In this document: positions 11,180-35,528 of the stretch, in pieces
Position numbering within the stretch: position 1 is the first letter of the stretch
Layout of the letters: every line of letters starts with the position of its first letter
Assembly: GCF_014201835.1 (NCBI RefSeq)
Contig: NZ_JACHFH010000008.1
Coordinates: 1 to 64,000 of the forward strand
Source of the DNA: Pectinatus brassicae
Lineage (GTDB): Bacteria; Bacillota; Negativicutes; Selenomonadales; Selenomonadaceae
Direction of reading: 5' to 3'
Length of the DNA stretch: 64,000 nucleotides
The notes under the pieces: model-generated
Databases searched by the model: none
The model's input: only the letters and a program-made list of their open reading frames with translations
What the model was told of the DNA's origin: nothing
Made by a program: the position numbers and the translations under genes

Positions 11180-11207
11180 AGACTGCCGTAGAAAACTGCG
11201 GCAGTCT
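11180..11207 (-). terminator. Terminator that originally followed glmS, now cut off by the transposon
   Basis: The stem AGACTGCCGTAG (11180-11191) pairs with CTGCGGCAGTCT (11196-11207) around AAAA, with one G-T pair. On the minus strand it is followed by TTTTATTTTTATT. Half of the stem (the last 7 bases) is repeated beside glmS at 25101-25107, which shows that this is the old glmS terminator. Confidence 0.85.
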
Positions 11208-11232
11208 AAAAATAACAAGAAAATTGAGCACA
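11201..11232 (+). repeat. Left copy of the 32-bp direct repeat bordering the Tn7-like element
   Basis: GCAGTCT, five A's, then TAACAAGAAAATTGAGCACA. It abuts the TGT of the left end exactly and matches 25101-25132 at 31 of 32 positions, the difference being A versus G at the eighth base. Confidence 0.95.
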
Positions 11233-11376
11233 TGTAACATTACAAAACAGTTTGATTAAAATATACTAAAAAATATTATCAATTAATATATATAATGAAG
11301 TATTTGAACAAAATAGTTTGATTGAATTTTTACGGATATAAAACAATATTATTTTGTACAAATAATATTGATCAAT
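11233..11376 (+). promoter_or_regulatory. Left transposon end with spaced TnsB-type binding sites
   Basis: Sites matching ACAAAAYAGTTTGATYRAA lie at 11241-11261 and 11308-11328, with a weaker one at 11358-11376. The wide spacing is typical of Tn7 left ends. Confidence 0.8.
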
Positions 11377-11451
11377 ACAATACGATATTAGGCCACATTA
11401 ATATAGTATTGTTATTTAATTATATTACATCAATATAATATCGTTATTTAG

Positions 11452-11690
11452 TTATTTTATCAATCCTATTTCGGATAAAAAACGAGATGTTTTTTTATTC
11501 CAACCATAATATGATTTTGAATATGACAAAAATAAACTTTTTTTAGTTCTAGTAATTGCTACAAAACAGTTTCGTCGATCTTCTTCCATTTCTCTGCTTG
11601 AATTTCCCTTTTTTATACTTTGAAAAGAGGGGAGTTCATCTTCTACTAGACCAATTAAAAAAACATAACAAATAGTTATCTCTATAAGTT
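11452..11690 (-). pseudogene. C-terminal remnant of a UvrD/Rep-like superfamily I helicase
   Basis: Reading the minus strand from about 11690 to the TAA at 11452-11454 gives FLIGLVEDELPSF, then EEDRRNCFVAITRTKKSLF. The first matches the VxxxGLxEGxLP segment and the second helicase motif VI (E-x-RR-L-x-Y-V-A-x-T-R-A) of UvrD/Rep/PcrA helicases. The frame breaks up upstream of the first block and no start codon or ATPase domain is present. It is the remains of a full helicase gene, perhaps cargo lost from the left end of the transposon. Similar helicases occur in several phage-defence loci, but that link is only a possibility here. Confidence 0.75.
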
Positions 11691-11840
11691 TTGCAAAAGG
11701 CTATTATTTTGTCTAGATTAATATCTATAGATGTGGTTATCTAATACATATCTTTGGGATTGATACTTAGAGAAATAGCCTGTTGACCTTTTTGTAAAGT
11801 GAATGATTTTATCAACTGGTACAATGTAAATATTATTTAA

Positions 11841-13010
11841 TTATTCTATTAGAGAACTGGATTTTTTTCCTGAAGTTGGAACAGAGATTGGATTAGTTCC
11901 ATTAACCGTAAGGTGACCTGAGATACTAATGGTTTTTGCTACTATTGAACCATTAACCGTTACATTTCCTGTTATTTTTACATTTCCTTTAGGTGCATAT
12001 ATAATTCCATCTATAGTTGTGTTCCCACTAATTGTTATTGCATCATTAGCATTGGACAAAGAATAAATAGCTAACTGCTGTTGGTTAGTGTTATCTGCAG
12101 CTGTTAGATTTCCACTAATCGTTATTGTTCCATTTACTAATAATTGACCAGTACTACTAATTGTATTGTTACTACTTATTTTTACATCGTCATTAACATA
12201 TATTGCCCCAGATAGTGTGCTGTTTTTCCACTTTGGATCTTTCGTATAGGATTGTCCAACTGCTTCTGCATTTGTTTGTATTTCGTTTGCAAAATCTGGC
12301 ATAGGAATATTAGTTACATTACTACTATTTTGTGTGGATGAACTAACGGTTGAACTACCGGATATTAGAATATTTCCATGGGCAGTTACAGAAGTAACAG
12401 AAGAACTACCACCTAATGTTATATTACCAACTGCTTCTGCATTTCCCAAGAGAGATGCATTCCCAGAAATTTCTAAATTTTGATTAGAGTGAGCATTTCC
12501 AGTTACATGGGTATTGCCAGATATTGTTAATGGATCAGTTGAACTCCCAGAAAATAAAGAGTAGGCAAATGGTCCTGATGGAATATTTGTCATTTGGGCA
12601 GTCGCTCTAGCTGAAATAGTATAAGTGTTAGTACCTGTAAGTAGCTGAATAAAATAAGTTTTAACATTTTTACTAACATTTACAATAATCATTGTACTAG
12701 GATCATATGTTGTTCCTGTTTTTTTTATAGTAGTAGGATAAGTAACTGTAATACTTTCATCGGACTTACTGTTTAAATTAATATATTTTTGAGCTTCTGC
12801 TTCAGCTTCAATATGATTTGTAGCAGAAACAATATACATTGCACCAGCTGCAGCACCTGCATCAGCCATGTTCTGTAGGTATGATTTTTGATAATATAAA
12901 TTCCCTAGATCTATAGCTAATCCTGCCATGCCTAATAAAATAGGAAGTGTCAATGCAAATAATACGATCATTTGTCCATTTTTTTGTTTCAAATATTTAA
13001 ATATATTCAT
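11841..13010 (-). CDS. TadG/Flp-type envelope protein with beta-solenoid-like repeats (transposon cargo)
   Basis: A 389-residue protein. The N-terminus KQKNGQMIVLFALTLPILLG followed by MAGLAIDLGNLYYQKSYLQN matches the TadG/TadE N-terminal region of Flp pilus assembly proteins: a short cytoplasmic lead, one membrane helix, then an outward-facing domain. From about residue 165 on the sequence consists of short Gly/Asn/Ser/Thr-rich units (ISGNTHVTG, EISGNASLLG, ITISGNLTA, VKITGNVTVNG) that suggest a right-handed beta-helix or bactofilin-like stack. GGAG precedes the ATG. No other tad genes (TadA ATPase, prepilin peptidase) are present. It lies beside three c-di-GMP signalling genes. Surface display is inferred, not shown. 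Confidence 0.75.
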   Translation of the reverse strand: MNIFKYLKQKNGQMIVLFALTLPILLGMAGLAIDLGNLYYQKSYLQNMADAGAAAGAMYIVSATNHIEAEAEAQKYINLNSKSDESITVTYPTTIKKTGTTYDPSTMIIVNVSKNVKTYFIQLLTGTNTYTISARATAQMTNIPSGPFAYSLFSGSSTDPLTISGNTHVTGNAHSNQNLEISGNASLLGNAEAVGNITLGGSSSVTSVTAHGNILISGSSTVSSSTQNSSNVTNIPMPDFANEIQTNAEAVGQSYTKDPKWKNSTLSGAIYVNDDVKISSNNTISSTGQLLVNGTITISGNLTAADNTNQQQLAIYSLSNANDAITISGNTTIDGIIYAPKGNVKITGNVTVNGSIVAKTISISGHLTVNGTNPISVPTSGKKSSSLIE

Positions 13011-13067
13011 AATATTTACTCCATATAATTAAAAGTTAACTATGTAGGTATATTAATAAAATGTATT

Positions 13068-13976
13068 TTAACTGCAATATATTTTGTTGCGACCTGAATT
13101 TTTTGCTTTATATAAATTTTCATCAGCTATTCTAAGTGCATCTAGTACATTAATAGTTTCATTTTTTAAAATATAACCACCAAAACTAGATGTTATTGAT
13201 ATGATTCCGGCAGAAGTATCAAATTTTTCATTTTCAATAGATTGTCTAATATGCTCAATTAGTGAAGGAATCGATTCTTTTTTTGCATATTTTATACAAA
13301 TTAAAAATTCTTCGCCACCATATCGTGCAACCCAATCTTGATTTTTACGTGTATTATTAACTAATATATTAGCAAATTTTTTTATAACCTCATCTCCTAC
13401 TAAATGACCATAATTATCATTTATTTTTTTAAAATAATCAATATCAGTCAAAACTATTGCTAAAGTAAATTTGTTTTTTATGGAATCAAGTATATCTATT
13501 GGTAATCTTTCAATGATATATTTTCTGTTATATACTTGAGTAAGCTCATCACGAATAACTATATCATTTAATTTTTCAATAGTTTTTTTTAATGAATAAT
13601 TTTCCAATGAGCCTATATTTGCAGGAGAAATACTATCTAATAATTTTTGTCCAGTGATATCTTTAACCAATTCTATCACTAATGAAGAATTATCTAATTT
13701 TAATGGTATTGCTGTAATGATAAAAATTTTTCCAGAATTTTCTTCGAATTTAATAAGAGAAGTGTCTTCATTAATTGCTCTCATTGATATACAATTTTTG
13801 CAAGGGGAATAACTGTTCCAAATTGCATGACATGGTAGTTTATTACTTGAATGTATATCATTTTTATTTTCAATATTATATATTTTTTTTTCCACAGGAT
13901 TTATTATTCTAACTGTATCAAAATAAAAGTCTAATGTTTTTATGTCATCTAATATTTTTTGAGGTATTTTTATCAT
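13068..13976 (-). CDS. PAS-GGDEF diguanylate cyclase (transposon cargo)
   Basis: About 302 residues from the ATG at 13976, which has GGAGAT upstream; a longer frame from 14039 lacks a good site. The N-terminal sensor has the cysteine-rich CHAIWNSYSPCKNC pattern found in some PAS domains. The C-terminal half is a GGDEF domain: DELTQVYNRKYI, LTDIDYFKKINDNYGH and the active loop RYGGEEFLICI. The metal and substrate residues look intact, so c-di-GMP synthesis is expected. The inhibitory RxxD site is altered to KNQD, suggesting loss of product feedback. It is divergent from the EAL-HDOD gene at 14180 and followed by the TadG-like gene on the same strand. Confidence 0.85.
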   Translation of the reverse strand: MIKIPQKILDDIKTLDFYFDTVRIINPVEKKIYNIENKNDIHSSNKLPCHAIWNSYSPCKNCISMRAINEDTSLIKFEENSGKIFIITAIPLKLDNSSLVIELVKDITGQKLLDSISPANIGSLENYSLKKTIEKLNDIVIRDELTQVYNRKYIIERLPIDILDSIKNKFTLAIVLTDIDYFKKINDNYGHLVGDEVIKKFANILVNNTRKNQDWVARYGGEEFLICIKYAKKESIPSLIEHIRQSIENEKFDTSAGIISITSSFGGYILKNETINVLDALRIADENLYKAKNSGRNKIYCS

Positions 13977-14179
13977 AAAATGCTTATCTCCTATCTTTGC
14001 ATAGAGTTTAAATATATTTAAAATTCTATAAGAAAGCATTAATACCTGCGTAATTTATGTATATATTTAGTTTTCCATTTTTTGTTATTTTCTTTATTTT
14101 AGAGGTATATCACTTTTCTTGAAGAAAAAGGATATAAGTAAAAAAAATTAATTGTTTTCTTTAAAAGGGAGAAAATACT

Positions 14180-15403
14180 TTGAGAAATAATTTTATTGCG
14201 CGACAGCCAATTTTTAATAAAAACAAACAGGTTTTTGGATATGAACTATTATTTCGTTCTTCAGCACATTCTCAAAATGATAATATATTTGATAATGATA
14301 GAGCAACTTTACAAGTATTAGAAGATAGTTTATTAGGAACAGGGATTACTAGGTTGACTAATAGAAAAATTGCATTTATCAATTTTCCTACTAATATTTT
14401 ATTGGCTCCATTTATATTAAATTTACCAAAAGATATACTAATAATTGAAATATTAGAAACCGTATTACCTTCTACTGATATTATTATTCAATGTAAAAAA
14501 TTAAAAATGGCAGGATTCTCTTTGGCATTAGATGATTTTTCTACATTATCAGTAAACACAGAGTTGTTGCCATTCGTTGATTATGTAAAAGTCGATTTTC
14601 GAGTTACTAACCGTCATGAACGTAGAGAATTTATAAAAAAATATAAACAGTATAATATTGTTTTTTTAGCAGAAAAAGTTGAAACTTATGATGAATTTAA
14701 AGAAGCAATTCATGATGGTTATAGTTTGTTTCAAGGTTATTTTTTCAGTAAACCTGAGGTGCTTATTACTAAAGCAGTTAATTTAATTAGTAAAACTACC
14801 TTTCAATTTATGCGTGAGCTAATGATGGAAGAACCGAATTTCAATAAATTAGAATCTATTTTATCTCATGATGTTTCGTTATCCTATAAAATTTTAAGAT
14901 TTATTAATTCTTCCTATTTTGGGTTTAGTAGAAAAATAACATCTATACGTCAAGCATTAATGCTTTTAGGCAAAGATGGACTTTATAAATGGTCTTCTTT
15001 ATTTATTCTTAGTAGTTATATAAAAAATAAACCATCGGAATTACTGGTACTTTCATTAGTACGAGCTAGATTTGCGGAATTAATTGCTGAACAATTACAG
15101 CAAGAAAATCCAAATGAATTTTTTCTTGCTGGAATGTTTTCACTTTTAGATGCTTTTTTTGATTGTCCTTTAGATGTTATTCTAGAAAATTTGCCAATAC
15201 ATGATGAAGTAAAACAGGGAATAAAATTTAGTAATAATATTATAGGTAAAGTTATGAGTTTAGTAGCTGCTTGTGAAAAGGCAGACTGGAATAAATGTGC
15301 TCAGTTGAGTGAGAAATTACATATTCCTTATCCTATTTTACTAAACAAATATAACCAAGCACAGCAATGGAGTTATGTTGACTCTATTGTCTTAAATATT
15401 TAA
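14180..15403 (+). CDS. EAL-HDOD (YuxH-type) signalling protein (transposon cargo)
   Basis: A 407-residue protein starting at TTG 14180 with GGGAGA upstream. Residues 1 to about 195 form an EAL-like domain beginning IARQPIFNKNKQVFGYELLF; the EAL triad is replaced by ELL, and the later motifs (ALDDF, DYVKVDF, LAEKVET) are only partly kept, so c-di-GMP hydrolysis is unlikely and binding is possible. From about 200 on there is an HDOD domain (LSHDVSLSYKILRFINSSYF, then SIRQALMLLGKDGLYKW). This pairing is known from YuxH/CdgJ proteins that act in motility and surface behaviour. It stands next to two GGDEF genes within the transposon. Confidence 0.88.
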   Translation: MRNNFIARQPIFNKNKQVFGYELLFRSSAHSQNDNIFDNDRATLQVLEDSLLGTGITRLTNRKIAFINFPTNILLAPFILNLPKDILIIEILETVLPSTDIIIQCKKLKMAGFSLALDDFSTLSVNTELLPFVDYVKVDFRVTNRHERREFIKKYKQYNIVFLAEKVETYDEFKEAIHDGYSLFQGYFFSKPEVLITKAVNLISKTTFQFMRELMMEEPNFNKLESILSHDVSLSYKILRFINSSYFGFSRKITSIRQALMLLGKDGLYKWSSLFILSSYIKNKPSELLVLSLVRARFAELIAEQLQQENPNEFFLAGMFSLLDAFFDCPLDVILENLPIHDEVKQGIKFSNNIIGKVMSLVAACEKADWNKCAQLSEKLHIPYPILLNKYNQAQQWSYVDSIVLNI

Positions 15404-15433
15404 CTATATAAAATATAAAAAGGAGAGGTAAAA

Positions 15434-16368
15434 ATGCAACTACCATCACGATTTTCAGGAACCAGCATTGGAGCTCATATAAAGTTGCAAAAAATTTATT
15501 TGAAGCAGCATATATTGTAGATAAAGAAGGCACTGTTTTATTTTGGAATGATATGGCTACAGAAGTTACAGGATATGATTATGCTTCAGCAATTGGGAAA
15601 AAATGTAAAGATCATTTATTAATGCATTTTGATGAAGATGGCAACTCTTGCTGTGAAAATAAGTGTCCTGCAAAGAAAGCACTAGAAATACAGGATGTAT
15701 TTCAATCAAACTTTACAATGCATCATCAAGATGGACATGTTATTCCTGTAGAAGTAAGATGTATTCCATTAACGGATGACTCAAATAATATTATTGGCGT
15801 TATAGAATTATTTAGGAAACTACAAAGTGCAACATCGACAGTAAAAGATTCTGTTGTAAATGGTTTAGTTCAAATTGCATATACTGATCCAGTTACAAAT
15901 ATTCCTAATAGACAATATATGGATCAAAAATTACGAATGCTTTTATTAGAATCGATAAAATCTACAAAGGACATATCTCTAGGTATATTAATTATTGATA
16001 TACGAAATCTCGTAGATTTTAATAGTTATGGGGGAATAACTTTAGGAAATTTATTATTAAAAGTTGTAGCTAAATCAATTTTTGAAATAATCCAATTAGA
16101 ATCTGGTAGTTTTCTTGCTCGTTGGTACGGAGGAACTTTTATAGTATTTATTAATACAAATAAGAACACTATATTAATGAATTGGGCAAATAAATTAAAA
16201 TTAGCACTTGATCATTCTTTTGTCCCTGCTTGGGAAGATATTCAGATTGATTCACGTATTTATGGGACAATTGTAAATAATGGTGAAACTTTTGAGAAAA
16301 TAACAACTCGATTGGAAAAACAATGGTCTAAATGTAAAAATAGTACAGAAACGATAAATGTTTTTTAA
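15434..16368 (+). pseudogene. PAS plus degenerate GGDEF protein with a frameshift near its start (transposon cargo)
   Basis: The gene begins with AGGAGAGG and ATG at 15434, giving MQLPSRFSGTSIGAHIK, but that frame stops after 24 codons. In the neighbouring frame the protein continues without loss: KVAKNLFEAAYIVDKEGTV and then a PAS domain with SCCENKCPAKKAL. One base missing from the AAA run at 15481-15483 would explain it. The GGDEF part has TDPVTNIPNRQYMDQ, but the active loop is RWYGGTFIVF, so cyclase activity is not expected. Translation from the internal ATG at 15553 has no ribosome-binding site. A sequencing error, true decay or slippage at the A-run are all possible. Confidence 0.7.
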
Positions 16369-16407
16369 CTGATGAATTATCAAGTTAAGTGCGACAGTTC
16401 GTGTAAA

Positions 16408-16513
16408 AAAGACAGGAATAGGTCTTTTACAACCAAATATTTTCTTGGTTGTGAATTAATTAAAAACATTTTTCTATTAAATCAGAAGTTTCTACTTTAT
16501 AAAGGCCTGTCTT
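16408..16513. repeat. Nested inverted repeats in the cargo-tnsE gap
   Basis: AAAAAGACAGG at the left pairs with CCTGTCTTTTT at the right of this span. Inside, ACAACCAA (16430s) pairs with TTGGTTGT, and a competing small hairpin AAAAGAC / GTCTTTT is possible at the left. The plus-strand end has a T-run. It could be a terminator-antiterminator pair, the ends of a lost insertion, or a structured RNA. The rest of 16369-16893 shows no convincing gene. Confidence 0.5.
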
Positions 16514-16790
16514 TTTAGAACATAACGATCATAGTAATTTGTTAGTCTTTTCATTATTAGCAGCTCTTAGGAGTGGTAAGAAACTGCAAAATATATAACA
16601 ATTCCGAGAGTGTTGTTGAGTTTCTGATGGCAGGTGAATTCCGTGCCGCAAGCTGTTTTAACTGTTTTAAAAGATTACAAAGATAATAATGAACGAATAT
16701 AAGAAATTGATTTTTGCGTACTATGTTAAGAATCATTTGGTATTTTTAATTAGGTATATTTTTATGGATGCTTTTTTTTCTTTTTTGCCG

Positions 16791-16836
16791 AAGAATAATC
16801 TTCATTTTATATGAAGATTATTCTTTGAGCGTTTTT
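16791..16836 (+). terminator. Strong hairpin downstream of the tns operon
   Basis: A 14-bp perfect stem AAGAATAATCTTCA (16791-16804) / TGAAGATTATTCTT (16812-16825), followed on the plus strand by TGAGCGTTTTTATTT. It would stop plus-strand transcripts from the cargo before they enter tnsE in antisense, and may fold in the tnsE 3' end as well. Confidence 0.65.
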
Positions 16837-16893
16837 ATTTGTCATACTTTATTTTACAATCTAAGATTCAATAAAATAAACTTATAATTCAAG

Positions 16894-18423
16894 TCAAAAT
16901 AATTTATTAAAAAGTCTTTCTTCTTTTTTTTCTATCGTAATATTAGTATGTTTTAAACGGTAACATACTAAATAATTAATTTTTTCTAATTGAGGCCATG
17001 TACCTGAATTTATAATAAATTTTTTTATTATATTATGACATATTTTATCCCAATTTAGTAACTGTTTAGATATACACATTAGTGTGGAAATTGATAAGTG
17101 TTGGCGTTGTATTTCAATGATAATCGCATTAGTGTTATTTTGGGTTTTTATTTTTCCAATGAGATATTTTCTAGGGGTAACTCCGTCATCAAGCGTACAT
17201 ATTGATCTATAACGCCAATGATTATTTAATACCCCAATATATTGGGTAATACTATCTGTTTTGCTCCGTTTCCCCATTAGCTGTAGCACTGCTTGAATAT
17301 CTGCAAAATCATCATCTAAATTATCTTGCATTATATGCGCAAATTCCAGTTGAGGAATTGTTTCTAAGCCTCCAAAATCACCTGTTGTTCGCTGATTTGT
17401 ATCAGAAATGATATTACATTTTGTACTTTTTGATGTCACACATTCTTTATTTATTTTGATTCTGTTGATTTCGGTAAATGTACTATATTCAGAGAGAATA
17501 TCCTTATCATCTTCAATATCTAGAAAATTATTAGATGCCGTCATATTAGCTATTAAATCTTTTGTATAATCACTAGATAATGTCACTATTTTTCTTTTTG
17601 ATTTGTTTAATTCTCTGTTTTTACGATCTTCTACTTCTTCATAAGTCGCTAATCTTGGATGAGTAACCTGAATTGCATTACATTTTAATCTTTTTTGTTT
17701 ACAGGCTATAATCTCTCTGATGTATCTTCGACCATTTCTTTCTTCAAAGCGTATTGTGAGTGTCAAGTCATTAAATAAAAATTCAAATAAAATCCCCTTA
17801 TTTTCTTTAATATTTTTATAAAGCAGATTCAGCATACTATAAATTTCAGGATTAGAAAGTACCCAGGCGACATGTTTAATTGCCGCATTTTGCTTTACAT
17901 AGTTGACAGGTACATCCGTACTGAAATTCAGTTCTAACACATCATTTTTTAATGCATGTAAAATTCGAGTATCAATGGAATCAAACTGTGTGATTTGATT
18001 TAACCAAAATACATCTGGTGCTAATATAGCCCGCATAATTTCAAAAAGTGAAATTATATAATATTTATAATTTATACTGATCCCAAATGTATAACAATCA
18101 AACCTGTGATCCCTTCCATTTTTTAGTAAATATGGTTCAATTGGTTTCCGATGTAACACATCTTCCACTATAGAAATATCGGCTTCGACCCATTTAGACA
18201 TATCTTGTCGTACCCCATCTATATATACAGCAGCTACTATTAATAAATGCAAATCTCCAAAAGACCGTCGGAGTGTTTTGGGATAATTATGTTCTATGGA
18301 TAAAAATAATGCATCGACAAACCAGCGGCCTTTTGCGTGATAAGGTTTACTGATTTTTATTAATTTTGCTTTTTCACCTTTTTCAAAAGGCCACTTATTT
18401 AACCGGATGATTGACTTTGTCAT
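16894..18423 (-). CDS. tnsE: TnsE-like target-selection protein
   Basis: About 509 residues from the ATG at 18423 (a GTG at 18441 in the same frame is also possible). In Tn7, TnsE directs insertion into replicating DNA and conjugal plasmids by binding 3'-recessed ends and the sliding clamp. The assignment rests on the position as fifth gene after tnsABCD, on length (Tn7 TnsE is 538 residues) and on overall composition: an N-terminal half with YHAKGRWFVDALFLSIEHN and a central QVTHPRLATYEEVEDR block. I see no simple catalytic motif, as expected for a DNA-binding selector. It overlaps tnsD by 29 bases, so the genes are probably coupled. Codon use is AT-rich like the rest of the element. Confidence 0.75.
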   Translation of the reverse strand: MTKSIIRLNKWPFEKGEKAKLIKISKPYHAKGRWFVDALFLSIEHNYPKTLRRSFGDLHLLIVAAVYIDGVRQDMSKWVEADISIVEDVLHRKPIEPYLLKNGRDHRFDCYTFGISINYKYYIISLFEIMRAILAPDVFWLNQITQFDSIDTRILHALKNDVLELNFSTDVPVNYVKQNAAIKHVAWVLSNPEIYSMLNLLYKNIKENKGILFEFLFNDLTLTIRFEERNGRRYIREIIACKQKRLKCNAIQVTHPRLATYEEVEDRKNRELNKSKRKIVTLSSDYTKDLIANMTASNNFLDIEDDKDILSEYSTFTEINRIKINKECVTSKSTKCNIISDTNQRTTGDFGGLETIPQLEFAHIMQDNLDDDFADIQAVLQLMGKRSKTDSITQYIGVLNNHWRYRSICTLDDGVTPRKYLIGKIKTQNNTNAIIIEIQRQHLSISTLMCISKQLLNWDKICHNIIKKFIINSGTWPQLEKINYLVCYRLKHTNITIEKKEERLFNKLF

Positions 18424-20299
18424 TTCTTGTAAATATACCACCTTGCGATGAATTCCAATTTAGATAATTTTTAATTAAGTTATAATCTTTGTGCCGTAAC
18501 CCTGCTTTACGCCATACTTTCCATTCAGGTAAAAATATTCCTTCTGCATGCATTTCTTTAATAATTTGCTGGCATCTTCTAATTTGAAATTGCTGTGTTG
18601 TTTCTGTAACTCGTGCAATAAAAGCTTGACTAAGAGGCAACTTGTCTTTTTTTTTGTTTAAAATCGACAATTCTGCAATTTGTTTTCCCAATGAAGATTT
18701 ACATATGCGAATTATTTTATTCTTCTGAAGCAATATACTATATGCTCTTTGCAACTGTACTAATATCTCTAGGTCGCGTTGTTGCCAATCAATATATCCA
18801 TTGTTGCCACTCGGCGCCTTAGCAATAGGAAGTATTTTCATTAGCCATGCTTGATCATGCCGGTATAAAAACATATATTCTTTTGGACAAATTTTACGAA
18901 TTTCAGTGCGTGATAATTCTGGTTGTTCTCTCATTATTTGTTGGAATCGTTGTTTATAAGATTTGTGATACTGAGTCGCTTGTTTTTGTAAGATGTCTAG
19001 TGGTGTATGCCCTTCCTTCATAGTTTCGTTTTTCATGCTAGCTTCGAATTTCTGAACGGTTTTAACATCACATCCCAAGATTCTTGCCATTTTGCGATAG
19101 CTTAAATCATTTTTCTGGAGTAATTCGCGTAATTTTCTTTCCCAAACGGCACCAAATACTTTTATGCGTCCCTTACGGTATCGATCTTTCTCTGATTGAT
19201 CTGGACCAGTACGTGAATAGCAATATCCGCATTTACAAGTAAAGGTACCAACAGGTCTTCTTGTTTTCGAATCTGCTGTAATAATAACCTGTTCAATCAT
19301 AGCTTGCTGATAATGTTCAGCTGCTTGGTTTAAACATGGCCAAGGACCAGCGCCAAAAGGATTATAACTTGTTGACATTCCCCTAAAAAAATTGTCCATA
19401 TTACCAGATAGCAAAAGAATGAGCAATATATGTCGTAGTGGATGTACGGTTCTTTTTATATCTCGCGTGACAATACGTAACCAATTGTATTCATTATGCC
19501 GATCTATATTTGATTCGAGAAACATCAATAACGGTTTTCCATAATGTCCAACTACAAAGTCATGTAAATTCGCTTGCCGAACTCGCATCCCATTCGTCAG
19601 TAAATCTTTTTGATACAATAAGTTTTTATATCGAGCTAGTACATTCTTTTTTTCGATGTTCGAAAAATGATGTGTCAATAAATAATAAGCTGCTTTTGCT
19701 ATACGCCATAAAAGCCCATTAAATTTTTTTTTATAACAATAAGTACTTGATAGATCAATTCGATTTTCTTCTAGGCGGACATACTCAATCCGACTACAAT
19801 CATTTGTTGTTATGTCATACGCTTTCAAATCACAGCTATGATGAGGACAGACTACTACTCCCTGCAATTGATGCTCACGATGAATGTAGGGTTCACCCAC
19901 TGTTGCAATCTCTGTACTTGCACACATGGGGCAATAATATATCGCTTTTTTAACACAAATACTCCCTGCAATAATTCCTAATTTGTTATACACGCCTTGT
20001 CCATTTCCCAATGTTATAGCCTTTCGAATATCAACTTGTCTGTATTGTGGCAGGAATGGTGCATAAAAAGGAAAAATTGTATGTTGTTGAATCAATGATT
20101 TTGGTGTATACGAATTACCTAATTCATTACAGAAAAATTGCAAGTAATTTCCCATTTCAAAAGTAGGAATTATGGTTTTTTTGCCAAATAGCTCCATTAA
20201 CGTATCTTTAAAAACAATATTGCCAGAATAAAAATGATATCTGGCAAACGCAGAATATAATAACTCATCAGGATAAGGATCTGTGAAGAAGGATAGCAT
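18395..20299 (-). CDS. tnsD: TnsD/TniQ-family attTn7 target selector
   Basis: TnsD binds inside the 3' end of glmS and recruits TnsC. About 634 residues from the ATG at 20299, which has GGAG seven bases upstream and lies just past the tnsC stop. The TniQ N-terminus reads FTDPYPDELLYSAFARYHFYSG. A zinc site follows: CPMC, then H-x7-C-x2-H in REHQLQGVVVCPHH. The second half contains CKCGYCYSRTG and a helix-turn-helix (LSYRKMARILGCDVKTVQKF), as in TnsD proteins that recognise a fixed site. The insertion beside glmS agrees with this function. An in-frame start at 20329 would overlap tnsC and looks less likely. Confidence 0.93.
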   Translation of the reverse strand: MLSFFTDPYPDELLYSAFARYHFYSGNIVFKDTLMELFGKKTIIPTFEMGNYLQFFCNELGNSYTPKSLIQQHTIFPFYAPFLPQYRQVDIRKAITLGNGQGVYNKLGIIAGSICVKKAIYYCPMCASTEIATVGEPYIHREHQLQGVVVCPHHSCDLKAYDITTNDCSRIEYVRLEENRIDLSSTYCYKKKFNGLLWRIAKAAYYLLTHHFSNIEKKNVLARYKNLLYQKDLLTNGMRVRQANLHDFVVGHYGKPLLMFLESNIDRHNEYNWLRIVTRDIKRTVHPLRHILLILLLSGNMDNFFRGMSTSYNPFGAGPWPCLNQAAEHYQQAMIEQVIITADSKTRRPVGTFTCKCGYCYSRTGPDQSEKDRYRKGRIKVFGAVWERKLRELLQKNDLSYRKMARILGCDVKTVQKFEASMKNETMKEGHTPLDILQKQATQYHKSYKQRFQQIMREQPELSRTEIRKICPKEYMFLYRHDQAWLMKILPIAKAPSGNNGYIDWQQRDLEILVQLQRAYSILLQKNKIIRICKSSLGKQIAELSILNKKKDKLPLSQAFIARVTETTQQFQIRRCQQIIKEMHAEGIFLPEWKVWRKAGLRHKDYNLIKNYLNWNSSQGGIFTRNDKVNHPVK

Positions 20300-20303
20300 A
20301 GTA

Positions 20304-21989
20304 TCACTCCACTTTTGTAAATTCCTCAAATGGATTTTTTATAAGCCCTTTTTTCTTAAATAACTCATAGGGATGTTCTTTTTTGCGAATTGCCTCATCA
20401 TAGATTTTTAAAAGACTGAAAGTTTTATTAGGAATAGCCTGTTGTTTTTTCTTTTGTTGCTGTTGATTTTTAGTTTCAGCAAAAATACGTTGCATAACTA
20501 GCATTTTTAGCTCATCTTCTGGAATATTACTATCTGTAGTACTAACAACTGTGTCAATAATATTTCGAAGGACATCTTGAGTGAAATTTGGAAAAATATT
20601 GGATGAACAAATACTAAAATATAAGGCATCATGGGATGCTTGGCGTTTATTTTTCATTTCTTGCCGTTTATTAGCAATGGCTTCATTAACACGATCTTCC
20701 ATCTCAATATCATGCTGTAAATTTCGCCAAATGATTTCTTCATTAATAGATATATCATCAAATTCAGCAATTTTTAGAGGATCACCTGAGCGTAGTGCTG
20801 TAATCATCGGTTGTGTAAATTTCAAATCATGCTCTGTAGCTTCTTTAATTATCGCAGGTGTCATTTTATTCACATTATGGAGCAAAGCACGGCTTTGGGC
20901 ACACATAAATAGCATTACAGCTAATGAAATAACTCCTTGGCATTGATCATAAAAGAAATCCTTTATCGTTTGAGTTAGTTCAGTATCTTCATCCAACACA
21001 TTAAATTCCCATAAGGACTCTAACAGAGTATCCCACTCAGCACTATTTTGTTTTAAAGGACCCATTTCAATATAACCACCAGATTGCACTCGACGAGCTA
21101 ACCTGAAATTATGCTGAAAAAGACTACGTGATTTACTAGTCCCAATAAAAATAAGGGGAACCGAAAACATATTTGTAAGTGTGACCAAAAAATCCAGCAT
21201 ATCAGCTGCTTCTTTTTTCAATTTACTCAAATGTTGAATTTCATCAATGACTAGAACACCAACATTATAATTAATCAATAAGGTGGTCATATGCATCAGC
21301 ATTGTAGATGTAGAACGAGTTAAATAACCATACTTTTCTAACCATCGTTCATTTGTTAAACGATCAATTTCTGCAAATATAGACCGGCATAATGTTGCAA
21401 AGTTGCCATCATAAGGGCAGTCTATTTTTAACCAAACAATCTGTGTCCTAGTAAGTGGTTGTCCTTTATAAGAGAAATGTTTGATTACCTGCGGATATAA
21501 GTGCAATGTGCGATTGATAGCTGTTGTCTTTCCTGCACCAGAAACGCCATTTATCATGACACATTCTGCGGTTGTGTTTCCAACTTGATAATTGGTTTCC
21601 AACTCTTCAGTCGTACACTCTTTTAAATTTTTCATTTGATTTAGTATCTGCATCTTATGCTTGTATTGAGCATCTAGTGGATTTCTTGATTGATAAGAAT
21701 GACGAATCAATGTTGAAATAATAGATTCCAAACGAATATGAGCAGGCAGAGGTTGCAAAAAGCTTTTTACACGCCATAAGATATGTGACTTTATACGGGG
21801 ACTCAATCTCTTTTCCTCTTCACTGATTATTGGAAAATGATAAAAGGCATCAATAACCTCTTCTTCTGTCTCTAAAATTGGTGGCAGAGCTTCAATTAAA
21901 GGATTGCCATCATAATCACTAATTTTTTGTGCGCGATAAACAGCGGATTCATATGCAGAATAACTATTACTATGATTTTGATTTTTCAT
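20304..21989 (-). CDS. tnsC: TnsC, AAA+ transposition regulator
   Basis: TnsC is the ATP-dependent link between target selector and transposase; it also mediates target immunity. The 561-residue protein has Walker A GVSGAGKT at about 148-155 and Walker B VLVIDE at 245-250 followed by IQHLS, then a sensor-1-like IFIGTSKS. The long C-terminal tail after about residue 400, rich in Lys and Gln, is where Tn7 TnsC contacts TnsA and TnsB. The start ATG overlaps the end of tnsB by 20 bases and has GGAGAAGG upstream, so tight translational coupling is likely. Confidence 0.95.
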   Translation of the reverse strand: MKNQNHSNSYSAYESAVYRAQKISDYDGNPLIEALPPILETEEEVIDAFYHFPIISEEEKRLSPRIKSHILWRVKSFLQPLPAHIRLESIISTLIRHSYQSRNPLDAQYKHKMQILNQMKNLKECTTEELETNYQVGNTTAECVMINGVSGAGKTTAINRTLHLYPQVIKHFSYKGQPLTRTQIVWLKIDCPYDGNFATLCRSIFAEIDRLTNERWLEKYGYLTRSTSTMLMHMTTLLINYNVGVLVIDEIQHLSKLKKEAADMLDFLVTLTNMFSVPLIFIGTSKSRSLFQHNFRLARRVQSGGYIEMGPLKQNSAEWDTLLESLWEFNVLDEDTELTQTIKDFFYDQCQGVISLAVMLFMCAQSRALLHNVNKMTPAIIKEATEHDLKFTQPMITALRSGDPLKIAEFDDISINEEIIWRNLQHDIEMEDRVNEAIANKRQEMKNKRQASHDALYFSICSSNIFPNFTQDVLRNIIDTVVSTTDSNIPEDELKMLVMQRIFAETKNQQQQKKKQQAIPNKTFSLLKIYDEAIRKKEHPYELFKKKGLIKNPFEEFTKVE

Positions 21990-24135
21990 GCTTAGCCTTC
22001 TCCTTCCGCTGTCTGATCTTTTTCATCATTTGGGCATTATAATCCAAGTTTTTATTATCTTGATCTTGGAAGTCCATTGGGGATTGTTCTATAGGAAAGG
22101 GGACGATTCCTCCTGAGTTATCATTACATGGCATAAATGCTTCGATTTTACGATTTCGTTCTTTTTCTTCGGCACGATTATTTCCAATATTTTTTAACCG
22201 CTTTGTCTTAGAAATGTTTGCATTTATATCTGTATTAGTTTTTTTCCTAGCATGCTTTGCAATCTTTAAGATCCTTTGATCTAGTTCCGTTTCCTGTTGT
22301 AATTGTGACTTACGTGCCTCATGACGTAAGGAGGCTGCTTTTTTATGAGTTGCAATTACATCTTCTAAATACATATCTTTAAAATGACGACTTTTATCTA
22401 GTAAATTCAGAGTGATATACTGATGTCCGTCTTCTTTAAGCCAGTAAATTTGTTCCATATTGCGCGGATCATAGACAATTTCTACAGTTTTAATTTTATG
22501 TTGTTTATATATATGTTCATTTAACAACTCAGTCGCACCATAGGAAAGATTTTTAAAAACAATAGTTCCTCGGCTAATTGTACCTTTGCCTCGTGGCATA
22601 ATGTTAAGCCTGAATATCTGCCGATCGACTTTTCGTAAGATCCCCTTTTTATGTGCTGTGCCCCAATTCCACAAATCTAACGGAACAGGTTTCACATTAT
22701 CTTTAATCATTGCGGGTGTTAATGGATATTTTTCAATTTCGTGGATATTATGCAAAAGAACGCTGCGAAGAATAATTTCGGTAATTTCTTTTAACGTAAG
22801 TTTTGAGTCTAACCGATAATCTGGATCGCCACGTTTGCGATAATCTTTCATTATGGCTCCGGGTAAAAAGCTTTTAATCCGGGCATTTACTGTACGAAAG
22901 AATCGTTCAACAATCCCTTTATAGTCACCACGATAGGGCGAGGTGTTTTCGATGGTTATATTCAAATTATTAATTAAATTTTTTACGCCATATCCCTCTA
23001 ATTCACCGCGATCAGCAATAATTGTTTTCGGCAAAAAACAGCAGGGCCAATCTTCTGATTCAATTTGTATATTGTATTTTCTACATAATTCTACTTTATC
23101 TGCCACCATCGAATCGAGTACCATCATTGCACCATTCCAAGAAGGCGATTCTAAGCCGACATAACATCCTGTTATCATACGTGAAAAAACATCAATTATA
23201 ATATACACAGTTGGTCTACCAATAATTTTACTACGATCAACTTCACTAACAATATAAAGATCTGCTACTGTAGCATCAATTTGAAAGCGAAAACCTGGAC
23301 CAGGGGATTCTATCGTCGAGTTACTTAACAGAGAACGATGTTTTAATTCAAATTCTTTTTCTCCCTTACGCATCTTAATATCTAATTCCGTGTTTTCATT
23401 TTTTTTGAACCAATAATAGTATTGGCGAAAGGTGGGAATCATCCCTTCATCACGTATAATTTTTTCAATCTCATTATTTTTTTTCACAGTAATAGAATAA
23501 AAATCAGCAAGAATTAATCGATATACTTGTCGCAATGATTTTTGCTGATTTGTCCGCCAATACTTGTTAGTCCCTGCTTCAAATTGTTTTTTTATACACT
23601 CAGAAATAATAATACCATTTGCTTTATTATTGCTATATATACGACGGCGTCCATTCTTTTCTTTTAAAATTCGTTCTTGCCCTTTTCCGCCTGATTTTGC
23701 ATAATCAGGTAGCAGAGCGTTGCGATTCATACCTCGTTGCCAAAAGCGGCTAAAAATGCGACGTACTCTAACCATAGGGATATTTTCAATTCTGCTTATT
23801 TCTTTAAATATTGCAGTTCTTGTATGTTTTGTTAAAATTGCCATTTTTTTATTATCCCAATATACTTCTATGATTCTCCAGGCTTCATCTCTTTTTGCAA
23901 TTTCTGAAGCCTTCAAGTTTTTATCTGACTTAATCATAAAGTATGGATCAGCGATTTCAACAATATCTGCATTATCAGATTTTATTTGCATGTCGTTAAT
24001 ACTTCCCATTATAGGCATACTAAAAGCTTGCTCAAGATATACATATAGGCAAATATCAGATGTTACATCTAAATGAATAATTCGCATTCGTTTTCCGTCA
24101 TTTACAAATTGATACACACTATTAAAATTTATCAT
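21970..24135 (-). CDS. tnsB: TnsB, DDE transposase of the Tn7-like element
   Basis: TnsB binds the repeated boxes in both ends, cuts the 3' ends and joins them to the target. Of 721 residues, 1 to about 270 are DNA-binding domains, then the RNase-H-fold core: Asp287 in FRFQIDATVADLY, Asp375 in TIIADRGELEG and Glu410 in YRGDYKGIVERFFRTVN, giving the D-D-35-E spacing of the family. A beta-barrel and a charged C-terminal tail (about 600-721) follow, the region that contacts TnsC. The start overlaps the tnsA stop by ATGA. All catalytic residues are present, so the element could be active. Confidence 0.97.
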   Translation of the reverse strand: MINFNSVYQFVNDGKRMRIIHLDVTSDICLYVYLEQAFSMPIMGSINDMQIKSDNADIVEIADPYFMIKSDKNLKASEIAKRDEAWRIIEVYWDNKKMAILTKHTRTAIFKEISRIENIPMVRVRRIFSRFWQRGMNRNALLPDYAKSGGKGQERILKEKNGRRRIYSNNKANGIIISECIKKQFEAGTNKYWRTNQQKSLRQVYRLILADFYSITVKKNNEIEKIIRDEGMIPTFRQYYYWFKKNENTELDIKMRKGEKEFELKHRSLLSNSTIESPGPGFRFQIDATVADLYIVSEVDRSKIIGRPTVYIIIDVFSRMITGCYVGLESPSWNGAMMVLDSMVADKVELCRKYNIQIESEDWPCCFLPKTIIADRGELEGYGVKNLINNLNITIENTSPYRGDYKGIVERFFRTVNARIKSFLPGAIMKDYRKRGDPDYRLDSKLTLKEITEIILRSVLLHNIHEIEKYPLTPAMIKDNVKPVPLDLWNWGTAHKKGILRKVDRQIFRLNIMPRGKGTISRGTIVFKNLSYGATELLNEHIYKQHKIKTVEIVYDPRNMEQIYWLKEDGHQYITLNLLDKSRHFKDMYLEDVIATHKKAASLRHEARKSQLQQETELDQRILKIAKHARKKTNTDINANISKTKRLKNIGNNRAEEKERNRKIEAFMPCNDNSGGIVPFPIEQSPMDFQDQDNKNLDYNAQMMKKIRQRKEKAKHEKSKS

Positions 24136-24968
24136 GATATCCCCATTCCTAACATCCTTGATTTTTTCAGTAATTCAACACGAATATACTGATCTATATT
24201 TAATGGTTGCAACAAATCAATTGTAATATACTTCTGTGCTATAAGATGTTTAAAAAGAGCTATACCTGCACCTTTCGGCAGATGAACATCTTGCTCAAAC
24301 ATGCGGGATATTTGTCGTACTGTTTTATCAGAAACAAGTAGTCGTTTTAAAAATTCAATAACAAGATCTTCTTTCTCATCTTCGTCTATATCAGAAAGTC
24401 CTGCGTAATCTGATAAATCATAATATGCTAAAGCATCGGCAATATTTTGGCTATAAATTTTATCTATTTCAACTTCGGTAACTATACCCCAATTAATTTC
24501 TTTACGATGCCAATATGTTTTTTCAATTTGGAATTTTTCAATAACCCTACGCGATAATAAATCTTGTTTATACTTTGTTGTACGGATAATATCTTCCGTT
24601 GTATCTCCTTTTTTTAGAGTAATACAAAAATCTGACGTCATTGTAATTGGTTTTTTAGTTATTGGATGTATCGGATGCTTAATGCCTAACTCTTCAGCTA
24701 TTAACAAGGTTTCTTTTAACTCCAATGGAAATTGTTCACGTATATCAACAACAAAGGCAGAAAATTCTAATAATATAAAGTAGTTTCGCTCTAAGTCAGA
24801 GAGAAATTCATGTTGTCGTCCTGTTTTTATACCACGTAATCTTGATGAACGTCCTAATGATGGTACATCTTGAATAAGAATAAATGGCTTATATGCGTTA
24901 CCATGAGGAATAAGATTATAATTTTCTTCATTTCCGCGATGGATGTTAATTCTGTTTCGTTTTGCCAT
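24132..24968 (-). CDS. tnsA: TnsA endonuclease
   Basis: TnsA cuts the 5' strands at the transposon ends, making Tn7 transposition cut-and-paste. The 278-residue protein has a restriction-enzyme-like fold with Glu60 in the ERNYFILLEF segment, Asp113 in MTSDFCITLK and Lys132 in TTKYKQDL; these line up with Tn7 TnsA Glu63, Asp114 and Lys132. VVDIREQFPL and YWHRKEINWGIVTE are family signatures. The C-terminal winged-helix part contacts TnsC. The ribosome-binding site GGGAGGTGG lies inside a long hairpin (24971-25012), which also carries the likely -10 box. It is first in the tns operon, 129 bases inside the right end. Confidence 0.96.
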   Translation of the reverse strand: MAKRNRINIHRGNEENYNLIPHGNAYKPFILIQDVPSLGRSSRLRGIKTGRQHEFLSDLERNYFILLEFSAFVVDIREQFPLELKETLLIAEELGIKHPIHPITKKPITMTSDFCITLKKGDTTEDIIRTTKYKQDLLSRRVIEKFQIEKTYWHRKEINWGIVTEVEIDKIYSQNIADALAYYDLSDYAGLSDIDEDEKEDLVIEFLKRLLVSDKTVRQISRMFEQDVHLPKGAGIALFKHLIAQKYITIDLLQPLNIDQYIRVELLKKSRMLGMGIS

Positions 24969-24970
24969 AA

Positions 24971-25012
24971 AAAACCACCTCCCGCAATAAGTATATTACG
25001 AGAGGTGGTTTT
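24971..25012 (-). promoter_or_regulatory. 19-bp hairpin covering the tnsA ribosome-binding site and -10 box
   Basis: On the minus strand AAAACCACCTC (25012-25002) pairs with GAGGTGGTTTT (24981-24971). Eight more pairs (25001-24994 with 24989-24982, two of them G-U) extend it to a TACT tetraloop. The 3' arm contains the tnsA Shine-Dalgarno sequence and is followed by further T residues just before the ATG. It can act as a terminator for transcripts from glmS and also hide the ribosome-binding site. Confidence 0.85.
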
Positions 25013-25018
25013 AATCAA
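24990..25018 (-). promoter_or_regulatory. Probable tnsA promoter inside the right end
   Basis: On the minus strand TTGATT (25018-25013), 17 bases, TATACT (24995-24990). The predicted start near 24985-24983 lies after the 5' arm of the hairpin, so this RNA would have a leader of only about 16 bases and an open ribosome-binding site. The -35 lies beside the innermost TnsB-type box, so TnsB could repress it. Confidence 0.65.
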
Positions 25019-25030
25019 TTTTTATTGAAT

Positions 25031-25100
25031 GGTTTAATCAAACTGTTTTGTCTTTGATCAAACTTATTTATAAATGATCAAACTATTTTGTAATGCTACA
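25031..25100 (-). promoter_or_regulatory. Right transposon end with contiguous TnsB-type binding sites
   Basis: Reading inward from 25100: TGTAGCATTACAAAATAG-TTTGATCA, then AAATAAG-TTTGATCAAAG (25070-25051), then ACAAAACAG-TTTGATTAA (25051 to 25031). Three boxes in phase at about 20-bp steps is the compact form of Tn7 right ends. Confidence 0.8.
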
Positions 25101-25132
25101 GCAGTCTGAAAATAACAAGAAAATTGAGCACA
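25101..25132 (+). repeat. Right copy of the 32-bp direct repeat bordering the Tn7-like element
   Basis: It abuts the right end exactly and lies 18 bases from the glmS stop codon. It has G where the left copy (11201-11232) has A at the eighth base. Its first seven bases are half of the old glmS terminator stem. Confidence 0.95.
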
Positions 25133-25150: not shown

Positions 25151-26980
25151 TTATTCAACTGTTACTGATTTAGCTAAATTACGAGGTTTATCAACATCGC
25201 AGCCGCGGGTAATAGCGGCATAATAAGCAAGCATCTGTAAAGGAACAACAGTTAGAAGCGGTATTAATAATTCATCAGTAGCTGGAACTTTAATAACATG
25301 GTCAACGTATTTAATCAGTTCATTGTCAGTTTCAGCAGCAATACCAATAACTACCGCATCACGTGCTTTGATTTCTTTGATGTTACTGATAGTTTTTTCA
25401 TAAACACTTTTCTGGGTAGCAAGGGCAATAACTGGAACTCCCTTAACGATAAGAGCCAGGGTGCCATGTTTTAATTCGCCAGCAGCATACGCTTCAGCGT
25501 GAATGTAGGAGATTTCCTTTAATTTTAAAGACCCTTCAAGGGCAACATTATAATCAAGGGAACGACCGATGAAGAATACATCTTCATTAAAACCATATTG
25601 TTTGGCAAAGGTTTTAATCGGTTCGGTATCTTCTAAAGTGCGGCTGATTTGATCAGGCAGCGCACGCAGCTGTGTTAAAAGATCTTTTGTTCGTTCAGGA
25701 GCAATAGTCTTTTTGATGCCAGCCATGTACATAGCCAGCAGGAACATTGTTACTAGCTGGGTAGTATAAGCTTTAGTAGAAGCTACAGCTATTTCCGGAC
25801 CAGCCCAGGTATAGATAACTTCATCAGCGTCACGGGCAATGGAAGAACCTACAACATTAGTTATAGCTAGTGTTTTGCCGCCAAGACGTTTGGTTTCCTT
25901 TAAAGCAGCTAATGTATCACTGGTTTCACCTGATTGGCTTACAATGATGACTAATGTATGTTCATCGACAATTGGATTGCGATAACGGAATTCTGATGCA
26001 ATATCAAGTTCAACTGGTATGCGGGCCAGTTTTTCAATATAATATTTGCCGACAAGACCAGCATGATAAGCTGTACCACAGGCAACAATGAAGATTTTAT
26101 GGAATGATTCAAGATATTCTTTATTCCATTTTAATTCATCGAGAATAACGCTGGAATTATCTTTAGCAAGACGCGGCATTACAGTGTCACGGACAGCTTT
26201 TGGCTGTTCATGGATTTCTTTAAGCATGAAGTGTTCATAGCCGCCTTTTTCAGCAGCTTCAGCATTCCAGTTAACTTCAAAAACTTTTTTGGTTACAGGA
26301 ATACCTTCGTGATTGGTTATCCAAATGGAATCTTTTTTAACAACAGCCATTTCACCGTCATTGATTATATAATTACGGCGAGTATAACCGATGATAGCCG
26401 GTATGTCGGATGCGATGAAGTTTTCACCATCTCCAAGACCGATTACCAATGGATTGTCTTTTTTAGTGCAGATTAATTTATCAGGATCTCTGCGTGACAT
26501 GAATAATAATGAGTAAGAACCTTCGATGCGTTTTAATACTTCGCGAACAGCTCCTTCGAAATCACCATCATATAAATCTTCTAATAAATGGACAACAACT
26601 TCTGTATCTGTTTCGGAAAGAAATTTATGACCTTTTTCGATAAGGTCTTCTTTAAGGCTCATATAGTTTTCGATTATGCCATTATGAACGATAGCAAAAT
26701 CACCTTTGCAGTCCATATGAGGATGAGCATTTAAATCGGAAGGTCCGCCATGAGTAGCCCAACGGGTATGACCGATACCGATGCTTCCTTTAGGTTCATG
26801 ACCTTTAATCTTGTCTTTCAATGCATCGAGGCGACCAACGCATTTTTCTAAATTAATTTTATCACCATCAAATACCGCGATACCTGAAGAATCATAACCA
26901 CGATATTCGAGCTTAGTCAGGCCGTCAATCAAAAAAGACTGAGCCTGCTTATTTCCAATATAACCAACAATACCACACAT
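25151..26980 (-). CDS. glmS: Glutamine-fructose-6-phosphate aminotransferase
   Basis: GlmS makes glucosamine 6-phosphate, the entry point to peptidoglycan and other amino sugars. At 609 residues it begins MCGIVGYIG, with Cys2 the glutaminase nucleophile after removal of Met1. Glutaminase motifs HTRWATHGGPS and DGDFEGAV-type segments are followed by two SIS domains (SQSGETSDT, TKAYTTQ) and the C-terminal PRNLAKSVTVE. The start has a GGAGG site. Upstream is a glmS ribozyme. The 3' end of the gene, the TnsD recognition site in Tn7, is intact, and the transposon right end lies 50 bases beyond the stop. Confidence 0.98.
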   Translation of the reverse strand: MCGIVGYIGNKQAQSFLIDGLTKLEYRGYDSSGIAVFDGDKINLEKCVGRLDALKDKIKGHEPKGSIGIGHTRWATHGGPSDLNAHPHMDCKGDFAIVHNGIIENYMSLKEDLIEKGHKFLSETDTEVVVHLLEDLYDGDFEGAVREVLKRIEGSYSLLFMSRRDPDKLICTKKDNPLVIGLGDGENFIASDIPAIIGYTRRNYIINDGEMAVVKKDSIWITNHEGIPVTKKVFEVNWNAEAAEKGGYEHFMLKEIHEQPKAVRDTVMPRLAKDNSSVILDELKWNKEYLESFHKIFIVACGTAYHAGLVGKYYIEKLARIPVELDIASEFRYRNPIVDEHTLVIIVSQSGETSDTLAALKETKRLGGKTLAITNVVGSSIARDADEVIYTWAGPEIAVASTKAYTTQLVTMFLLAMYMAGIKKTIAPERTKDLLTQLRALPDQISRTLEDTEPIKTFAKQYGFNEDVFFIGRSLDYNVALEGSLKLKEISYIHAEAYAAGELKHGTLALIVKGVPVIALATQKSVYEKTISNIKEIKARDAVVIGIAAETDNELIKYVDHVIKVPATDELLIPLLTVVPLQMLAYYAAITRGCDVDKPRNLAKSVTVE

Positions 26981-27027
26981 AATGAGATACCTCCAAAATA
27001 AATAATTATTAAAGATGTATCTGCCAA

Positions 27028-27158
27028 TCCTTACTCTTTGTATTGTGTCCTGGGTTGCCCCAAGGTTTTGACAAATTTTATCGACCGGATTACAGCCGAG
27101 AGGCATCCGCTGATTACTCGACAACCTCTTCCTCGTCCTCTTATAAAGAGCCAGCGCT
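27028..27158 (-). ncRNA. glmS ribozyme (glucosamine-6-phosphate-activated self-cleaving riboswitch)
   Basis: On the minus strand the cleavage site AGCGC lies at 27158-27154 with the cut expected before G27157. Then come the conserved pieces GACGAGGAAGAGGTTGTCGA, the CAGCGGATGCCTCTCGG segment of the catalytic core, and GGGGCAACCCAGGACACAAT near the 3' end. Order and spacing match the known glmS ribozyme. Binding of glucosamine 6-phosphate triggers cleavage, and the mRNA is then degraded, giving feedback control of glmS. The 3' border is approximate. Confidence 0.92.
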
Positions 27159-35434: not shown

Positions 35435-35528
35435 ACATAAAGTAAGAAAATGATATTTTATTGAAGCAAATATAAAATATTATGATATATTTTAAAATAA
35501 TATTTTAATTTTATAGGAGGAATTTTTT

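Follow-up and report, generated by a model that had tools for sequence, protein, structure and literature searches.

Hairpins that silence the transposase on transcripts arriving from outside the element are known from the insertion sequences IS10 and IS50. The gene upstream of a Tn7-like element is typically essential, expressed and oriented the same way as the element, which makes the means of keeping the transposase low a basic question for such elements. For Tn7 itself, Gay, Tybulewicz and Walker, in Biochem J in 1986, reportedly mapped glmS transcripts as ending about 127 bp inside the element. At the right end of VchCAST, a palindrome at 97–107 bp is discussed as affecting orientation, possibly via tnsABC transcription (PMC10201428). 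The original prediction for Pectinatus brassicae held that a hairpin between glmS and tnsA guards tnsA against transcription from glmS, and that such a guard was not known to be described for Tn7-like elements. We analysed this proposal in the window, a stretch of 64,000 nucleotides (contig NZ_JACHFH010000008.1, positions 1 to 64,000), and in the right ends of related elements.

Tn7 (L007), as well as an E. coli chromosome with Tn7 downstream of glmS and the same layout (L127), shares with the window the Tns genes, the TnsB-type repeats and the insertion behind glmS. Counted from the right end, the −35 is at 80, the −10 at 103, the hairpin core at 96–127 and the ATG at 135 in Tn7, and the corresponding positions in the window are 83, 106, 93–126 and 133; promoter, hairpin and ATG are thus at nearly equal distances. 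In contrast, the stem sequences are unrelated, the stem of the window is longer, and the Shine-Dalgarno sequence that it contains is strong, whereas the one in the stem of Tn7 is only weak. The reported distance of about 127 bp coincides with the position at which the Tn7 hairpin core stops in our analysis; the 1986 mapping would directly support termination in Tn7, and the terminator half of the arrangement is probably already known for that element. The layout is therefore not peculiar to the Pectinatus element. As to the nesting, a search of the open literature, with the 1986 and 2000 Tn7 papers outside its scope, found no description of a promoter nested in the hairpin, or of the breadth and covariation of the hairpin across the family.

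The hairpin of the window resembles those of IS10 and IS50 in that both arms would be present only in outside transcripts, and in that the ribosome-binding site lies in the 3' arm. The cases differ in that here a T-run follows the stem, the function conserved in relatives would be termination, and the transposases are unrelated. VchCAST and the window both have an inverted repeat that lies some 100 bp in from the right end, with a suspected tie to the tnsABC promoter; in VchCAST, however, it is one arm, not the palindrome, that is reported to matter, for integration orientation, and the excerpted text does not propose a terminator for the palindrome (PMC10201428).

The features of the locus are collected in Table 1. 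The genes tnsA–tnsE form one operon, and all five gave Pfam matches above the cut-off, with tnsD matching both TniQ and TnsD. The element has TGT...ACA ends and several TnsB-type repeats at the right end (TnsB sites being predicted from sequence), and the right end forms an inverted repeat with 11233–11256 at the left end. The insertion lies directly downstream of glmS with the right end towards glmS, 50 bp past the glmS stop codon. A 5-bp target duplication is absent, as the flanks ACTGC and TGTGC differ. Instead of the 5-bp duplication of Tn7, a 32-bp direct repeat (31/32) of DNA from downstream of glmS flanks the element at 11201–11232 and 25101–25132, perhaps reflecting the right and left ends of two insertions at different positions that were joined by recombination. 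The missing 5-bp duplication is a matter of the history of this copy, and membership in the Tn7-like group rests on the proteins, the ends and the target. Beside tnsE, the element carries a set of cyclic-di-GMP genes as cargo (11841–16368), encoding GGDEF, EAL/HDOD and PAS-GGDEF proteins together with a Tad/bactofilin-like protein. Elsewhere in the window, a long series of short same-strand open frames at 35500–57200 is prophage-like in appearance.

Table 1. Coordinates of the Tn7-like element, its host gene and the predicted regulatory features in the window
Feature	Position	Strand	Remarks
Tn7-like element, whole	11233..25100	minus	terminal inverted repeats TGTAACATTAC / GTAATGCTACA
glmS	25151..27124	minus	upstream of tnsA, same direction; Pfam SIS + GATase
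Element right end	25013..25100	minus	terminal TGTAGC (25100); about four TnsB-type repeats (...AGTTTGATCA)
−35 element TTGATT (putative)	25013..25018	minus	end of last TnsB-type repeat
19-pair hairpin	24971..25012	minus	5' arm 25012–24994, loop TACT 24993–24990, 3' arm 24989–24971
−10 element TATACT (putative)	24990..24995	minus	hairpin loop; same place in relatives
Shine-Dalgarno sequence GGGAGGTGG of tnsA	24975..24983	minus	wholly within 3' arm
Six-T run	24969..24974	minus	behind G-C core of stem; U-tract of predicted intrinsic terminator
tnsA	24132..24968	minus	Pfam PF08722 + PF08721
tnsB, tnsC, tnsD, tnsE	16894..24135	minus	Pfam Mu-transpos_C, TniB/AAA_22, TnsD+TniQ, TnsE_C
Displaced intrinsic terminator of glmS	11180..11207	minus	behind element's left end (11233)

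The predicted loss of the terminator belonging to glmS is borne out by comparison with four congeneric empty sites. In these, an intrinsic terminator stands closely behind glmS and is followed by a HAD-type gene, named here from its first residues rather than by family search. In the window, the element separates glmS from both the terminator and the HAD-type gene, which are found past its left end; the terminator is now 13.9 kb away, and next to glmS only the first seven bases of the terminator stem, AGACTGC, remain. RNA polymerase leaving glmS would therefore meet the hairpin of the element first. That hairpin lies inside the element and the glmS terminator outside it, and we thus rejected the possibility that the hairpin is a leftover of the glmS terminator.

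The hairpin itself, predicted as a 19-bp stem with a TACT loop and the tnsA Shine-Dalgarno sequence in its 3' arm, was confirmed on the minus strand. It is located between glmS and tnsA or, more exactly, between the TnsB-type repeats and tnsA. All 19 pairs, two of them G-U, form on the RNA strand read from glmS to tnsA, whereas on the opposite strand the two G-U pairs become A-C mismatches (89% match). The sense-strand fold was −36.0 kcal/mol, compared with −15.4 (sd 2.8) for shuffled sequences (z −7.27; 0/200 shuffles as good), and the opposite-strand fold gave a z of −3.32. The six T's abut the tnsA ATG (24968–24966), and four of the six have pairing partners among the A's of the 5' arm. The combination of a G-C-rich stem and a following T-run on the transcribed strand agrees with the sequence definition of an intrinsic terminator. 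A simple terminator scan of the window did not list the site, probably because T's were counted only after the stem had been extended to its full length.

The promoter proposed to overlap the hairpin, TTGATT and TATACT separated by 17 bp, was present as described. It matches 9 of 12 consensus bases; four such sites were found against 3.3 expected, and the match by itself was rejected as evidence, being at chance level in this A+T-rich DNA. The promoter carries weight because its position is conserved in relatives, not because of its consensus match. In 41 of 51 hairpins, the stem-loop contains a −10-like hexamer, preceded at 16–18 bp by a −35-like hexamer that usually falls within the last TnsB repeat. 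The nulls for a promoter inside the hairpin at a single locus were mostly about 0–13%, making single cases weak; the evidence for a nested promoter is its repeated position across loci. In one element (L010), a good candidate promoter, TTGACA-17-TATACT, occupies the corresponding place and the hairpin is absent, so that the promoter does not arise simply from the presence of a stem. Judging from the position of the promoter and its conservation, tnsA transcription in the window is predicted to start at about 24984–24983, past the 5' arm; the native leader would then be very short, at approximately 16 nt, and the Shine-Dalgarno sequence would lie close to its 5' terminus.

We consider it likely that the hairpin of the element is an intrinsic terminator against transcription from glmS, with the promoter of the element nested in it and the Shine-Dalgarno sequence locked in the stem as a backup. 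RNA polymerase reading in from glmS would transcribe both arms, the hairpin would fold, and transcription would stop in the T-run just ahead of the tnsA start codon. In any read-in RNA that gets through, the tnsA ribosome-binding site would still be locked in the stem. The native tnsA RNA, in contrast, would start inside the hairpin, using the −35 that the last TnsB-type repeat contains together with the −10 of the loop; lacking the 5' arm, it could be elongated and translated. The same hairpin may supply a new 3' end to the glmS RNA.

To see how far the arrangement extends, we collected TnsA relatives from plasmids, where ten loci were read, from 80 loci on genome contigs, and from whole genomes of the class, the loci being picked by TnsA similarity and the tnsA starts set by script. 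Under a strict definition applied by a single script (a stem core with no fewer than 7 pairs, 4 or more of them G-C, then 5 or more T among the following 8 bases, and an energy of −8 or lower), a terminator-like hairpin was present within 160 nt of 51 of the 89 tnsA genes, compared with 66 of 8900 shuffled regions (0.7%). Among control genes of the same loci, it was found at 17/251 other genes and 2/186 downstream tns genes. The difference was also clear when only hairpins whose end lay no more than 12 nt from the start codon were counted: 32/89 for tnsA, 2/251 for other genes and 0/186 for downstream tns genes. The occurrence of the hairpin at tnsA right ends is thus far above the level of shuffles and control genes, and these comparisons, together with the shuffled folds of the window, rule out a chance hairpin. 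TnsA proteins fell into 36 clusters at 60% identity, of which 16 have a strict hairpin match at tnsA, indicating that the signal does not come from one clone. With a slightly looser cut-off, the hairpin was detected between glmS and the first element gene in 44 of 49 glmS-linked elements. Three of the five misses (L044, L059 and L078) show a hairpin by eye and two (L048 and L090) none; a few elements (L010, L048 and L090) thus have no hairpin. The nearest kin in the class, L098 and L101, have the hairpin, as does L002 by eye. One copy near a contig start (L029:1-178) has lost most of the 5' arm, of which ACCCCTAAAGGGGT remains, and is perhaps a natural broken guard.

Conservation of the stem with covariation in related right ends had been proposed as a check, and it held. 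In 13 related ends, 7 of the 18 stem pairs have changed on both sides, and the covariation score of 0.336 lies above all 500 shuffled values (0.222, sd 0.023) and above those of slid versions (at most 0.172). The stem is more conserved in the Bacilli group, where three pairs have changed on both sides. Across the hairpins with a T-run, 76 G-U pairs were found compared with 13 A-C pairs, counted alike; of 59 hairpins, 47 have a T-run facing tnsA, compared with 14 that have one on the opposite side. The G-U excess and the side of the T-run point to RNA made from glmS to tnsA rather than to a DNA palindrome. Tn7, the window, L012 and L087 have nothing in common in their stem sequences, while the layout is alike. 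These observations bear on the possibility that the inverted repeat acts as DNA, as an operator bound by a repressor or a transposition protein at the tnsA promoter, the RNA form being incidental. The repeat does overlap the promoter and adjoin the TnsB sites, and the VchCAST palindrome is discussed with regard to tnsABC transcription (PMC10201428). However, a stem sequence that is wholly different between families with its pairing kept, the preference for G-U over A-C pairs and the one-sided T-run disfavour a plain operator palindrome, and we regard this explanation as very improbable.

The original prediction left open whether RNA from glmS is stopped at the T-run or has its ribosome-binding site hidden; conservation favours the former, and the latter stands for a subset only. 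The Shine-Dalgarno sequence lies within the 3' arm in the window, in Desulfosporosinus (L016, L017), in Tissierella (L058) and in the Bacilli group; in those of these ends that were modelled, read-in RNA leaves little or none of it unpaired. In the modelled RNA of the window, its unpaired probability is 0.000 in the read-in form and 0.22 in the native form, consistent with the pairing known from IS10 and IS50; in modelled native RNA of L016 and L017, it is unpaired at 0.8–0.9. In contrast, the Shine-Dalgarno sequence of Halolactibacillus, Aerococcus, Acetobacterium, Paenibacillus and others lies 10–60 nt downstream, outside the stem, and these ends retain the stem, the T-run and usually the −10 in the loop. 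Many relatives (L031, L034, L036, L042, L045, L053, L055, L069, L071, L076, L038 and L009) keep the hairpin and T-run with the ribosome-binding site outside. In L038, L059, L078 and L092, where another gene precedes tnsA, the hairpin has kept its place next to the TnsB repeats instead of accompanying tnsA; in L041, with its long leader, it likewise directly follows the TnsB repeats. Since the hairpin is fixed at the TnsB repeats and is kept even with the ribosome site outside, termination at the element's boundary is the most suitable reading of the shared function, while ribosome-site hiding is, on the modelled RNAs, an added layer in a subset that includes the window. The extra gene between the right end and tnsA in L038, L059, L078 and L092, with the hairpin ahead of it, could encode a regulator.

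A mainly translational guard, as for IS10 and IS50, would leave read-in RNA unstopped and hide only the ribosome-binding site in the stem. Besides the full pairing of the Shine-Dalgarno sequence in modelled read-in RNA of the window, and its near-full pairing in Bacilli and Desulfosporosinus relatives, this reading draws on L098, in which the 5' arm drifts to G-U pairs while the 3' arm, which holds the Shine-Dalgarno sequence, has stayed the same. It is nevertheless unlikely in view of the many relatives with the ribosome-binding site outside the hairpin and T-run, and of the retention of the T-run on one side.

It could also be argued that the hairpin serves the host, being kept for restoring the 3' end of glmS mRNA, with protection of tnsA as a by-product, as insertion cuts off the glmS terminator and nearly all glmS-linked elements have the hairpin. 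However, plasmid-borne and non-glmS elements (L006, L007 and L012) keep the hairpin, most with the nested promoter, and service to the host would not require a −10 in the loop, so that we judge this explanation to be distinctly improbable.

Terminator and nested promoter are arranged differently in the Clostridium-type ends L037, L043, L044, L049, L054 and L056, which have a promoter-side hairpin and then a separate terminator. Double hairpins of this kind lie approximately 150–200 nt upstream of tnsA in L037, L043, L044, L054 and L056, the first over the likely promoter and without a T-run; in L044, the 3' arm of the first hairpin (TGTATAGT) has a possible alternative partner in the 5' arm of the second, in the manner of an antiterminator. 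Native RNA of these ends would also meet the terminator, suggesting that the escape of native transcripts is not a universal rule. A terminator behind a likely promoter, with a second hairpin in front, would suit a regulated attenuator of the element's own transcript, starting upstream of the 5' arm, in which a signal would choose between termination and elongation. In most relatives and in the window, however, the best promoter pair of the region predicts a start beyond the 5' arm, and we give attenuation hardly any probability. A terminator facing glmS, with the tnsA promoter inside it, is the reading that we prefer for the window.

Taken together, Tn7 and many unrelated-looking relatives have the same layout, which therefore looks like a family-wide shield. 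On balance, we lean towards the view that, across phyla, the right ends of Tn7-like elements hold a promoter inside a terminator, an arrangement acting as a compact one-way valve: the −35 would come from the last TnsB site, where TnsB could repress, and the −10 from the loop; the stem and T-run would block transcription from the host, and in one branch the ribosome-binding site would be supplied by the 3' arm as well. Some mini-Tn7 constructs use a 90-bp Tn7R (PMC2918618), which stops before the Tn7 hairpin, and such insertions would thus be without the shield; background from Tn7-lux has been blamed on sequences near the resistance cassette (PMC12823268). For an element located behind glmS, the nested layout would be a simple answer to how the transposase stays low. 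If the valve reading is true, the turnover of stem sequences under a constant layout would represent a general way for these elements to stay deaf to the host gene.
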